From a virus, in the IMG/VR virus record IMGVR_UViG_3300045970_000794, positions 64,001 through 128,000 of that record: a stretch of 64,000 nt of DNA; one strand, written 5' to 3'. Below are positions 5,507 to 11,201 of this stretch, in pieces. Each line of letters begins with the position of its first letter. The first letter of the stretch is position 1. The translations under genes were made by a program, and so were the position numbers. The notes beneath the pieces are model-generated. The model made no database searches and was not told the origin of the DNA. It worked only from the letters and a program-made list of their open reading frames with translations.

Positions 5507-6670
5507 TTATAAATATCTGGTGAACTTATCAAATTCAGCATGTTCGATTGCTCTACCCATGTCTGGACCTGGTTTTATTCCTTTATCTAACATTTCATCA
5601 CCAGTAACTGATAATTTAAACTGAACAAACGCCTCAATCATTTTCATATCCAATGCATTTAATTCAGCAAATCTTATTAACTCATTAGGCTCGATTTTAG
5701 AGACTATCTCAGCTTTTTTGTATCTGAATACCAATTCTGGTTTAAAGTTAAGCATACGCAATAAAAAGACTATTTTAGATACCTCTATCCAACTATATGT
5801 TAAAGCGTTTAATGCCTTTTGAACTTCTTCTAGATTATTTTTAATTAATAGTCCAGCAATTAATACAATTGGGTCCTTTTCTTCAATAACACCAGCCATA
5901 TTAACATTTAATTTACCAAATATCCATTTAAGTAAATCATATTGTCTGTACATACCAAATAAATGAGTAATTGATTTTGCTGATTTAAATGATTTCAAAA
6001 ATTCATCCCTAATTCTCTCTGGTGAAATACCTTCCAAGCTAGAATCATTTCTTAATGCCATATCAGTAGCTTCATCAAGATTAGAACCAAATCTAGCTGC
6101 GAAACGAATCGCTCTCATGATTCTAAGTCTATCTTCACCAAATCTATCCATTGGCTTACCTACAGTTCTAACAACTCCATTTTCAATATCTTTACGCCCT
6201 TTAACCAAATCAACGATTTCACCAGTTTTAAGGTCATAGAATAACGCATTAATAGTTAAGTCACGTCTTTTCACATCTTTATTTATGTTTGTGAAATTAA
6301 CTCCATCTGGCCTACGCCCAGAACCAACATCACTACGAAAAGTTGCAATCTCAAATTCATCATTAGCAGTAAACACATTAACAACACCAAAAGCTTTACC
6401 AGTTTCTAATATATTAGTAACAAATGGTTGTCCTTTAAGTGTAGCAATAACTTGGTCTGGTGTAGCATCAGTAGCAAGGTCAAAATCTTTAGGTTCTTTT
6501 CCTAATAACGCATCCCTAACTGAACCACCAACTAGGTAAAGGTCAAATCCTTTACTAGCCATAGCGTTTCTAATTAAAATGATGTCATTAGGTACTTGGA
6601 TGTGTGTTTTCTTCCTTTGTCCTAATAACCTTTGTTTTATTCTATTAAATACTGATTCTATAATTTCCAT
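5507..6670 (-). CDS. cca: CCA-adding tRNA nucleotidyltransferase
   Basis: A 387-aa class II nucleotidyltransferase. The head domain has LVGGSVRDALLGKEPKDFDL with the catalytic DFD carboxylates (about residues 46-64). Next come the flexible loop and RRDLTINALFYD motif, and the nucleotide-template motif EDRLRIMRAIRFAARFG around residue 200. None of the readable tRNA genes here encode CCA, so this enzyme would complete and repair phage tRNA 3' ends. The start at 6670 lies just downstream of a perfect promoter; the longer frame to 6715 begins upstream of it. A poly(A) polymerase is the main alternative, but the tRNA context favours CCA addition. Confidence 0.9.
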   Translation of the reverse strand: MEIIESVFNRIKQRLLGQRKKTHIQVPNDIILIRNAMASKGFDLYLVGGSVRDALLGKEPKDFDLATDATPDQVIATLKGQPFVTNILETGKAFGVVNVFTANDEFEIATFRSDVGSGRRPDGVNFTNINKDVKRRDLTINALFYDLKTGEIVDLVKGRKDIENGVVRTVGKPMDRFGEDRLRIMRAIRFAARFGSNLDEATDMALRNDSSLEGISPERIRDEFLKSFKSAKSITHLFGMYRQYDLLKWIFGKLNVNMAGVIEEKDPIVLIAGLLIKNNLEEVQKALNALTYSWIEVSKIVFLLRMLNFKPELVFRYKKAEIVSKIEPNELIRFAELNALDMKMIEAFVQFKLSVTGDEMLDKGIKPGPDMGRAIEHAEFDKFTRYL

Positions 6671-6684
6671 GATATTTTTTTTTG

Positions 6685-6715
6685 CAAAGATACTAATTAT
6701 AATATAAATATCCAA
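6685..6715 (-). promoter_or_regulatory. Bacteroidota-type promoter of cca
   Basis: TTG (6715-6713), 20-bp spacer, TATCTTTG (6692-6685). The start codon follows about 15 nt later. The TTG overlaps the T-tract of the preceding terminator. Confidence 0.85.
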
Positions 6716-7336: not shown

Positions 7337-7669
7337 TTAAATTATTTTATTATTGTATAATTTTAATGCTAATGGTAAACTGCTGCATAGTTTATCGGAA
7401 CCTTCACAAGGTTCTAAGGCAATAGCAGTTATCTCGTAACCAAGGTCTGGCTCGATGAATGTAGAATATTTAATGTTGCGATTTTCGGCTTTGGAAAGTA
7501 ATTCTTTGAGGTGTTCCTCATTACGTGCCGATAAATAAACGAGATATTTGGAATCTCGGTGCCAAATTTTGGCAACTTCTGAATGGTCATGCTGAAATTG
7601 AACGGCAGCGTGTCCCGCTTGAACTGCTTGATAGCTAGGTTCTAAATCGTCTCTGACAATTACATACAT
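7337..7669 (-). CDS. Peptidyl-tRNA hydrolase, PTH2-like
   Basis: A 110-aa protein. The N-terminus MYVIVRDDLEPSYQAVQAGHAA resembles the PTH2 pattern (V-R-x-D-L ... K/QxxAQxxHA). The rest matches the compact alpha/beta PTH2 layout (YLSARNEEHLKELLSKAE..., then EPDLGYEITAIALEP). PTH2 enzymes recycle peptidyl-tRNA released by stalled ribosomes. The usual PTH2 lysine is replaced, so catalysis is not certain. The company of cca, tRNAs, a release factor and tmRNA supports a translation-rescue role. Confidence 0.7.
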   Translation of the reverse strand: MYVIVRDDLEPSYQAVQAGHAAVQFQHDHSEVAKIWHRDSKYLVYLSARNEEHLKELLSKAENRNIKYSTFIEPDLGYEITAIALEPCEGSDKLCSSLPLALKLYNNKII

Positions 7670-7733
7670 TTTTCTGTTAATCTACGTCATAATTTTAATT
7701 TTTAAGTTAAACAATTTTATTTATAATTTTTGA

Positions 7734-7807
7734 GACTCTAGTTGGATTCGAACCCACGCTGACGGGTTTAGAAGCCGCCGCTTTAGACCAAGCTAAGCTA
7801 TAGAGCC
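7734..7807 (-). tRNA. tRNA with CTA anticodon (candidate amber suppressor)
   Basis: A 74-nt cloverleaf: acceptor GGCTCTA/TAGAGTC, D-stem GCTT/AAGC, T-arm GTGGG-TTCGAAT-CCAAC. With the normal single base after the D-stem, the anticodon stem is GCGGC/CCCGT (one C-C mismatch) and the loop TTCTAAA places CTA at 34-36, with U33 and A37. That reads TAG. A register shift giving TCT (Arg) would destroy the stem. The gene has its own perfect promoter. Its amino acid identity cannot be read from the sequence. Confidence 0.7.
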
Positions 7808-7820
7808 ATTTAATTTAATG

Positions 7821-7851
7821 CAAAGATAATACAAATAATTTAAATGTCCAA
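7821..7851 (-). promoter_or_regulatory. Bacteroidota-type promoter of the CTA tRNA
   Basis: TTG (7851-7849), 20-bp spacer, TATCTTTG (7828-7821), ending 13 nt before the tRNA 5' end. Confidence 0.85.
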
Positions 7852-7895
7852 ATATTTTTGCAGTTTTTTTAAAAAAAATCATAATAGTCTGATTA

Positions 7896-8081
7896 TTAAT
7901 TAATAAAAAACGCTAAAATAATATAAACAAATATTAATGTATAAAGTAAAGCAGCATTTAAAAACCTATTTAAGGTTCCATAAATGCCACTTGACTTATC
8001 ATCACCACCATTAAACAACTTAAAGTTAAAAAATTGATGTGGTTTTACTATTAATGATATTATCGATTTCAATACAAACAT
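7896..8081 (-). CDS. Small membrane protein
   Basis: A 61-aa protein with a hydrophobic N-terminal segment (MFVLKSIISLIV) and a clear C-terminal transmembrane helix (AALLYTLIFVYIILAFFIN). A polar loop with GGDDKSSG lies between. No family recognised; many phages carry such small inner-membrane proteins. The call rests mainly on composition and position. Confidence 0.5.
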   Translation of the reverse strand: MFVLKSIISLIVKPHQFFNFKLFNGGDDKSSGIYGTLNRFLNAALLYTLIFVYIILAFFIN

Positions 8082-8141: not shown

Positions 8142-8667
8142 CTACCTGTTTAAAATTTTACCAAAGCGAATTACTTTTTCTATGAATTCTTCCTCTGTAC
8201 CATTATTATCAATGATTACATCAGCACAAGATATGCCAATATTAAATGAATCAGCTGACTCTTGTTCTAATCTTTTAGATGCATCAACCCAAACAATTAA
8301 ATCAAATAACCCTTGTTTCATACATTCTTCAATTTCACCCCTATCTCTCATACCAACATAACAGTCGGCTAATTCAAGAATTCCTTTAGCTAATCTAGCT
8401 CGGTCATCTTTATTATAATCACAAATCACAAATCATATTATACCATTCAGCTCTATGATTTGACCTATCTTCGTAACATTCCTCAGATGTCTTATAATCA
8501 TACTTTTCACTTAATTCATCATAAATGAATATATCAGCAGCTGCTTGTGATGATGAGATAAACTTTAAACCAAAATTATCTCTTAAAATTTCAGCAAACG
8601 TATCTTTACCATGTCTGGCATTTCCAAGGACTAACAGCCTTGGGAACTTACTTTTTCTTGTCTTCAT
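8142..8667 (-). pseudogene. dNMP kinase-like gene, frameshifted by a 7-bp tandem duplication
   Basis: Two overlapping frames together make one P-loop kinase of about 170 aa. The first (8419-8667) has the Walker A motif LVLGNARHGKDTFAE, typical of phage deoxynucleoside monophosphate kinases (T4 gp1-like). The second (8142-8429) continues with DRARLAKGILELADCYVGMR and a C-terminal DVIIDNNGTEEEF. The break is at two tandem copies of TTTGTGA; deleting one gives continuous WYNMICDYNKDDRARL. The second frame ends in TAG. It is either a recent inactivating slippage, a phase-variable site, or a read error. Confidence 0.75.
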
Positions 8668-9424
8668 AAAAATCTATTTTAAATGTTTTTTTAATTAATT
8701 TATTGTTTTTAATTGCAAATACTATTGAACTTTGAGATACTCCTATGACTCTAGCAGCTTCAGCTCCAGATTCTAAAATAGTAATTTCATTTGTTATAAT
8801 GTTTTTAATCGTAACTTTTTTACTACGTAAACTAATTTGACCAATTTTAAAAGAGTTAGAATTAGATTTAAAATTTTTAGTAAAACGAGCCTCAACTAAC
8901 TCTTTAATATCGGAATTTTTTATTTCATCATGATAAAACCAAGCAATATTTTTAACTGTTTTACAATTACCAAGGCAACATTTTGGAATTACACTTCGAT
9001 GTGTTTTTAATTCTCTAGATGCATCTTCAGCACTATTAAATTCATAAACAATAACACCTTCTTTATTATAACCAATCACACTTTTAGCATTATTACCTTT
9101 CTTGAAACTAGTGTTGTTACCAAATGTACAACCATCACCACCTAATGTATTATTAACTAAATCAAATCCCCATAATTTCATTTGACTAATCCAATATTTT
9201 TCCCAAAAAACCCATTCATCTATCGGTACTACATCAATCACCCATAAAATTGGTTTTAACTCTTCATTTCTTAATGAATTAATCCAATTTCGTTTATGTG
9301 TTTGATGGTCTCTAGCTCTATTCAAATGAGCTTTATATCTTTGTGTTATATTATTCGCTTTACCAACATATCTTACATGACCAGTCCTAGGGTCAATAAG
9401 AACATAAATATTTGTCGTTTCCAT
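8648..9424 (-). CDS. GIY-YIG homing endonuclease with NUMOD-type DNA-binding region
   Basis: A 258-aa protein. The GIY-YIG domain lies near residues 5-95 (NIYVLIDPRTGHVRYVGKAN, then RYKAHLNRARDH and the catalytic-region EKYWISQMK). This is followed by NUMOD-like repeats (VIGYNKEGVIVYEFNSAEDA, then a C-terminal VTIKNIITNEITILESGAEA). Its 3' end overlaps the first 20 nt of the dNMP kinase gene. A remnant of the kinase N-terminus survives upstream at 9459-9533, so this gene inserted at the kinase P-loop. Confidence 0.85.
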   Translation of the reverse strand: METTNIYVLIDPRTGHVRYVGKANNITQRYKAHLNRARDHQTHKRNWINSLRNEELKPILWVIDVVPIDEWVFWEKYWISQMKLWGFDLVNNTLGGDGCTFGNNTSFKKGNNAKSVIGYNKEGVIVYEFNSAEDASRELKTHRSVIPKCCLGNCKTVKNIAWFYHDEIKNSDIKELVEARFTKNFKSNSNSFKIGQISLRSKKVTIKNIITNEITILESGAEAARVIGVSQSSIVFAIKNNKLIKKTFKIDFYEDKKK

Positions 9425-10525: not shown

Positions 10526-11201
10526 TTATTTTAATAATTCTATCTTACCTTTTAAGATTTCTTTTAGACTCACTCTTTTACCAGTTATATGGTCAATAAC
10601 AGTATCATCTTTAACTCTATATGTTCTTCGTTTATCACCACGACACCCATTACCGATTTGTTCTCTTCTCTCATCAATTTCTTCTTCAATAACACCAGTT
10701 TGATAGAATTTATTAACCCGCTTAGTTAATTCACTTAATGCTTCTTCCCTATTTTTATGCTGGTCACGACCATCACGCACTACTTTAATACCAGTAGCAT
10801 AATGAGTCATTACAACGCATGAATCAGTAGTGTTGCGGTGCTGACCACCTTTACCACTACCTCTAATAGTTTCAATACGAATCTCAGATGGGTGTATTTC
10901 AACCATCTTATATTCATTTTTTTCTAAAATTGCTACAGTTATTGAACTTGTGTGAACTCTACCACGTTTTTCTGTTGGTGAAACTCTTTGCCATAAATGG
11001 GTGCCCGATTCTGAATTGAAAAAATCGGAGGCTTCTGGTGAGCTAAAGGCAGAAAACTATATTACTAGGTGTCTCACTTAATAATTCATATCTAAAATCG
11101 TTACGATTACACGCTTTCACGTATATTTTATATAACTCCCTAACTAATAATTTTGAATCTTCACCACCCTCGGCAGCTCTAATTTCAACTGTTGTTTTCA
11201 T
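10526..11201 (-). CDS. Short class I release factor with likely +1 frameshift at CTT TAG C
   Basis: Frame 1 (ATG 11201) reads [20 protein letters not shown]... to residue 52, then hits ...TGC CTT TAG CTC. Shifting +1 at CTT continues as [40 protein letters not shown] and the catalytic [14 protein letters not shown], giving 224 aa. The parts match the end of the PCRF domain, domain 2 (RF1-like PxT tripeptide as SPT) and domain 3 (GGQ) of RF1/RF2. The N-terminal helical domain is absent. The arrangement copies the prfB frameshift (CTT TGA C) but with TAG, the codon an RF1 would read. A simple inactivating indel is the alternative. The HNH gene overlaps its first codons. Confidence 0.8.

Follow-up and report, generated by a model that had tools for sequence, protein, structure and literature searches.

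Can a release factor gene whose reading frame is closed by a TAG after 52 codons still give rise to a complete release factor? The question is raised by the single gene for an RF-1-domain protein in a virus record of 362,102 bases, of which bases 64001-128000 were analysed here (64,000 nucleotides; hereafter, the window). The first-pass annotation of this gene had proposed a programmed +1 frameshift at CTT TAG C. Here, we find that the shift site is conserved and, beyond what had been proposed, that the gene belongs to a large family, that its product lacks domain 1, and that many relatives have an in-frame stop in place of the shift. We consider it very likely that three things hold jointly, i.e., that the product is a class I release factor reduced to domains 2-4, that a programmed +1 shift is needed to make it, and that the internal stop serves as a readout of termination capacity.

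The layout of the gene is summarized in Table 1. In the 0 frame, 52 residues ending in IVFCL are encoded before translation halts at TGC CTT TAG C. When CTTT is read as one Leu codon, a single open frame of 224 amino acids results, which extends to the terminal TAA. Because the +1 frame itself contains a TAG shortly upstream, the frame switch must fall within 14 nt, TTTTCTGCCTTTAG. The arrangement is of the prfB type in that CTT lies directly 5' of an in-frame stop and the protein is continued in the +1 frame; it departs from prfB in that the stop is TAG rather than TGA and the product resembles RF1 rather than RF2. Most comparisons indicate purifying selection on both segments. The dN/dS of the +1 segment is 0.10-0.31 against the four shift relatives with unsaturated synonymous sites, these sites being saturated for several other pairs, while the short N-terminal part reaches ~0.55 in one pair.

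Table 1. Features of the release factor locus and its surroundings (window coordinates, except for the last row)
Feature	Position	Strand	Basis or remark
Release factor gene	11201-10526	minus	ATG at 11201, TAA 10528-10526; sequence read directly
0-frame segment, 52 codons plus internal TAG (11045-11043)	11043..11201	minus	PCRF match to segment alone 7.4e-8
Slippery CTT; stop TAG; weak-context C (+4)	11048-11046; 11045-11043; 11042	minus	Sequence read directly
Recoding zone TTTTCTGCCTTTAGC	11042..11056	minus	Bounded by +1-frame TAG at 11059-11057
+1-frame segment, 172 codons from AGC, then TAA (10528-10526)	10526..11044	minus	Translation, dN/dS
Stop-recognition tripeptide position, Ser-Pro-Thr (family mostly PPT)	10973..10981	minus	Shifted translation
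Catalytic Gly-Gly-Gln motif	10841..10849	minus	Invariant in family alignment
GIY-YIG/NUMOD homing-endonuclease-like gene, near release factor gene	8648-9424	minus	
tRNA, anticodon CTA (amber-suppressor type; ARAGORN 'Pyl')	7732..7807	minus	Rfam RF00005, 51 bits
Peptidyl-tRNA hydrolase PTH2	7337..7669	minus	PF01981, 3.3e-10; neighbour common to 6 relatives
Poly(A) polymerase/CCA-adding enzyme head domain protein (translation/RNA context)	5507..6715	minus	PF01743, 3.4e-36
CTA tRNA in relatives	L291 5512; L292 6487; L293 7589; L298 6213; L300 7136; L302 5503; L305 7659; L306 5341 and 7815		

Several lines of evidence identify the shifted product as an RF1-like class I release factor, as the first-pass annotation had it. 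First, it matches both PF03462 (PCRF, 1.3e-19) and PF00472 (RF-1, 1e-23) and contains the GGQ motif. Second, it aligns along its whole length with the RF1 sequences of crystal and cryo-EM structures (4.5e-39), the homology covering domains 2-4; it starts at domain 2, and RF1 domain 1 is absent. Third, among profiles of curated families, RF1 gives the best score (193 bits), followed by RF2 (123) and PrfH (87), all of them under the cut-offs of these families: the RF1 (prfA) equivalogs require 423 bits (TIGR00019, 182.9 obtained) and 400 bits (NF001859, 193.5 obtained), and membership in PrfH was rejected at 87 bits against a cut-off of 166.65 (TIGR03072). Fourth, Q71, T76, the HTS motif and the Q-R-V-x-P-T-E region are RF1-like, and these surroundings of the tripeptide suggest that the window product may read UAA and UAG. 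Across the family, the recognition loop is variable (PPT, PPN, SPT, PPG and loop deletions), and this degeneracy means that codon specificity cannot be assumed. In L003, L109, L162 and L167, the loop is ~4 residues shorter, and codon specificity is probably altered or lost.

Comparison with known factors sets the family apart. It shares domains 2-4, GGQ and the surroundings of the recognition loop with RF1; however, the mini release factor has 224 rather than ~360 residues, carries SPT, PPT or PPN in the loop, and is recoded, while prfA is not (PMC12421855). Like PrfH (RFH), the partner of RtcB, it lacks domain 1, occurs sporadically and is linked to RNA repair, and some of its genes lie near an RNA ligase or a PNK-phosphatase-ligase, recalling PrfH with RtcB (PMC1586002, PMC6514570); a frameshift in PrfH was not found in PMC1586002. 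With ArfB/YaeJ and other GGQ rescue factors it has the GGQ domain in common, but it retains domain 2/4 and the stop-recognition loop.

To gather relatives, viral contigs were scanned with profiles, as were prokaryotic genomes, each species being represented by one; a viral scan with a single-sequence query returned no relatives, and an alignment query was needed to find them. The result is a set of 207 different short-type genes from phages, metagenome-assembled genomes and bacterial genomes, with genes taken as different unless identical over 330 nt; many of those counted come from metagenomic contigs, and some are closely related to each other. An internal stop is present early in the gene in 189 of the 207, absent from 16 and unclear in two; L221 and L231 show an apparent +2 relation. 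A +1 shift is required in 106 relatives, and CTT immediately precedes the stop in every one of them, as it does in 90 of 90 genes in an unbiased first pass, where whichever in-frame stop came first was taken, and in all 77 of the genes left by clustering at 70% identity. The stop at these 106 sites is TGA in 80, TAG in 23 and TAA in three. Nearly all of the 98 shift sites that lie early in the gene occupy one position, aligned to a Trp of RF1, and 89 of the 98 have an SD-like 4-mer at a distance of 4-13 nt 5' of the stop, compared to 1 of 61 genes with an early in-frame stop. The remaining eight, in the window gene and in seven relatives on other contigs, lie ~16 codons further on and lack an SD; the relatives (L047, L295, L298, L299, L300, L305 and L313) have TGY CTT TAG C at the very alignment column of the window site.

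Because the same column is used in seven relatives and CTT precedes the stop in 106 of 106 genes, CTT TAG C in the window gene is, as judged from the sequences, neither chance nor error. Programmed recoding of this gene is thus almost certain, an assessment that overlaps with those given below for sensing and for self-regulation. The proposal of a +1 shift is supported, and its refuting condition, an intact frame without a stop in close homologues, did not arise: at the window column, these homologues have retained one of the two, the shift or a stop in frame. The absence of an SD stimulator, likewise part of the first-pass annotation, extends to the whole window clade (0 of 8 sites), and RNA folding near the window site is not notable beyond shuffled sequences (z −0.3 to −0.4). 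SD starts are found for 5 of 266 genes in the window genome, matching the proposed type of host with little SD use; such sparse use is as expected for a Bacteroidota phage and points to a Bacteroidota host.

The device resembles that of prfB (RF2; CTT TGA C preceded by an SD) in the slippery CTT, the in-frame stop, the +1 direction, the release factor product and the early position. Most members also share the SD 3 nt before CTT, whereas the window clade does not. The differences are that the product is RF1-like and without domain 1, that the stops include TAG and TAA, that the window site lies inside domain 2, and that many relatives have in-frame stops, with both types present in L299. A 485-kb metagenomic phage in GenBank (LR745208.1, L003) carries a canonical GGAGGGGTCTTTGACC shift site (CTT TGA C) that is unannotated; among the phage-record matches inspected, no isolate phage had a frameshifted copy. 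A related 362-kb phage (L030) has a second partial release factor gene (7676-7957; the GGQ half, behind a TAA) ~3 kb from the first.

In 83 relatives, the internal stops, one or two per gene, are in frame; they are mostly TGA (in 81 relatives) and in a few cases TAG, with GGC TGA ACT as the context at the early site and ATC TGA CTA at the late site. Double stops occur in L299 (in-frame TGA plus CTT TAG C) and in L032 and L034 (TGA, then TAG), and alphaproteobacterial in-frame cases were found in Jiella (L236), a Rhodospirillales metagenome-assembled genome (L238) and Rhodovibrio (L245). The genes with in-frame stops would be expressed by readthrough. Within the window clade, TGA CTA AGC GGA of L293 aligns over TGC/TGT CTT (T)AGC GGT of the shift members; thus, few base changes convert an in-frame stop into a shift site and vice versa. 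The base after a stop (+4) affects the strength of termination, as is known from E. coli. T occupies this position at 2 of 206 internal stops, as opposed to 95 of 206 terminal stops of the same genes (Fisher 6e-32), which places the internal stops in weak-termination contexts; at the +1 sites, part of this bias could reflect the encoded residue, although GAT and GAC both specify Asp. On a quick maximum-likelihood tree from which the trait columns had been removed, we count at least 17 changes of stop identity among the +1 sites, at least 20 of recoding mode and three of site position, and at least six gains or losses of CTT TAG are forced by starred branches alone; given modest support and one long-branch warning, these counts are indications. 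They hint that the conserved feature of the family is a stop rather than one particular stop.

The surroundings of the gene are rich in functions related to tRNA and RNA. Of 12 close relatives in the window clade, 8 have a CTA tRNA in the vicinity of the release factor gene (Table 1), often together with PTH2; in the window, this tRNA is present although TAG ends genes normally. Phage tmRNA genes are predicted near the release factor gene in L295 (1756-2129) and L306 (1426-1780). T4-type RNA ligases and PTH2 recur close to phage copies. RNA ligase-like neighbours were recognized by eye, with no Pfam match, in L113, L118, L149, L156, L163 and L173, and PF09511-type RNA ligases neighbour the gene in L060, L065, L073, L190, L199 and L242; RNA ligase genes thus recur, adjacent to the gene or close by, in separate lineages. 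In Novimethylophilus, a gene for a PNK-phosphatase-RNA ligase fusion lies directly upstream of the mini release factor gene. No RtcB match was found among the neighbours scanned with Pfam, which cover a subset of relatives. Isolate genomes with a copy are those of Nannocystis, Minicystis, Jiella, Rhodovibrio and Novimethylophilus, and the CTT TGA version is found in isolates of Nannocystis (L224, L226, L228, L230 and L235) and in Minicystis rosea (L205). All five bacterial genomes searched, L205 and L228 among them, also contain full-length open genes of the prfA and prfB types.

The DNA shows the recoding site and that it is conserved, the family of the product and the lack of domain 1; from these, we infer how efficiency of the shift, sensing, codon specificity and feedback might be connected. 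In the proposed mechanism, the ribosome would pause at the point where peptidyl-tRNA-Leu occupies CUU and the A site contains UAG C, a weakly terminating sequence. Should release factor fail to arrive in time, the tRNA-Leu would slip from CUU to UUU and reading would resume at AGC, yielding the full factor; if release factor is plentiful, fast termination would release the 52-residue stub. In this way, the built-in stop would report termination capacity, and the mini-factor would be produced under shortage. In the window clade, host RF1 and the phage CTA tRNA may compete at the UAG, joined by the product itself if the latter has RF1-like specificity. We lean towards a sensor that responds to release factors as the function of the stop. 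The use of TGA in most relatives favours a general sensor of termination capacity over an RF1 loop, and, together with the variable loop, suggests that the factor answers a shortage of any release factor or that its codon specificity is relaxed. Points against this explanation are that the late site has no known stimulator, that 16 relatives have no internal stop, that TGA prevails at the shift sites and that stop identity does not strictly follow the tripeptide.

The first-pass annotation had gone further and suggested that the RF1-like product acts at the UAG of its own gene and so switches its synthesis off. Competition of the product at this codon would indeed close a feedback loop, and for the window clade, which has TAG, we regard strict self-regulation as a serious contender, if a somewhat doubtful one. 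The best match to the RF1 profile and the RF1-like recognition region speak for it, as does the association of SPT with TAG or TAA (4 of 5 genes, p = 0.012, kinship ignored). The idea that the tripeptide strictly dictates stop identity was rejected, the coupling being weak (PPN/PPG, p = 0.39). An RF1-type factor should not read TGA. As 80 of the 106 sites are TGA, self-regulation is not general in the family; moreover, the recognition loop is degenerate, the window tripeptide is SPT where the family mostly has PPT, and stop identity turns over. The RF1 loop is thus plausible in the window clade but not established.

The turnover of stop identity and the exchange of shift and in-frame stop in 20 mode changes would also fit a throttle, in which a stop with inefficient slippage or readthrough fixes a low, constant level of a factor that would be toxic in large amounts and does not respond to release factor supply. 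Overexpressed release factors do harm cells, RF2 strongly and RF1 modestly (PMC12421855). However, a weak start site would be a simpler way to low expression, and a sensor of termination rate would call for such a gate, a stop in a weak +4 context with a stimulator of the prfB type; the precedent of prfB is regulatory. We consider a mere throttle unlikely and retain the sensor of termination capacity as the preferred explanation.

The remaining alternatives concern whether the gene is recoded at all. An ATG-initiated frame (10526-10906) could encode a separate ArfB-like protein of 126 amino acids with the GGQ domain only, preceded by a short peptide; yet the +1 frame is conserved over ~45 residues before this ATG at 10906, the N-terminal part is conserved in its own frame, and all +1 relatives keep the same type of junction, making two genes very improbable. 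A code in which TAG, or TGA in relatives, is sense would accord with the nearby CTA-anticodon tRNA and the in-frame TGA of so many relatives; we give it even less credence, as TAG read as sense leaves the window frame unrestored. Genome-wide reassignment in the window genome was rejected, since ORFs ended by TAG or TGA do not run on and TAG terminates genes in the usual way (for 42 ORFs, the in-frame extension has a median of 5 codons), and so was a code change in the GGC/GGT TGA group (189 TGA-ended neighbour ORFs, median extension 11 codons vs 9 for TAA). In the other in-frame group (20 genes), the pooled TGA extension is longer, with a median of 24 vs 8, an excess that comes for the most part from GC-rich loci; TGA-ended ORFs are nearly lacking at a few AT-rich loci, and numbers per locus are small; a local code change at individual loci of this group is possible. 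Finally, an error in base calling or assembly, or a pseudogene in decay, suggested by a one-base frame change in one metagenome-derived genome, has a negligible chance of being correct, as the same site recurs on seven other contigs, CTT-stop is found in 106 genes including isolate genomes, the gene has no further lesion and is under purifying selection, and this possibility is already refuted for the family.

To our knowledge, autoregulatory frameshifting has hitherto been regarded as a property of RF2 only. The first-pass annotation knew of no RF1 precedent, in agreement with a survey of 8,164 prfB motifs in which TAG is absent and prfA is without a programmed shift (PMC12421855). Every CUU-stop entry of RECODE is prfB (PMC10885494), and frameshift clusters described elsewhere include release factor 2 (prfB) with RF1/prfA unmentioned (PMC3711429). 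A survey of huge phages mentions RF1 and RF2, but not frameshifting (PMC7162821), and our search for literature on phage release factors and frameshifting, which covered few subscription papers and no preprints, found nothing.

The family described here is RF1-like and uses a prfB-like device with TAG, TGA and TAA, which it swaps for in-frame stops at the same positions. We see an even chance that it represents an undescribed family of release factors without domain 1, in huge phages and some bacteria, gated by internal stops that sense the capacity to terminate at any of the three stop codons; frameshifting and readthrough would interchange at the same sites, double gates could sense RF2 and RF1, and in the window clade the CTA tRNA and PTH2 may be part of a phage takeover of termination. 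Annotations probably list many such recoded genes wrongly, as pseudogenes or as truncated. With its natural replicates, some of them in isolate genomes, the family lends itself to the question of what is sensed by a stop in a release factor gene. Altogether, these findings suggest that giant phages monitor and adjust translation termination.
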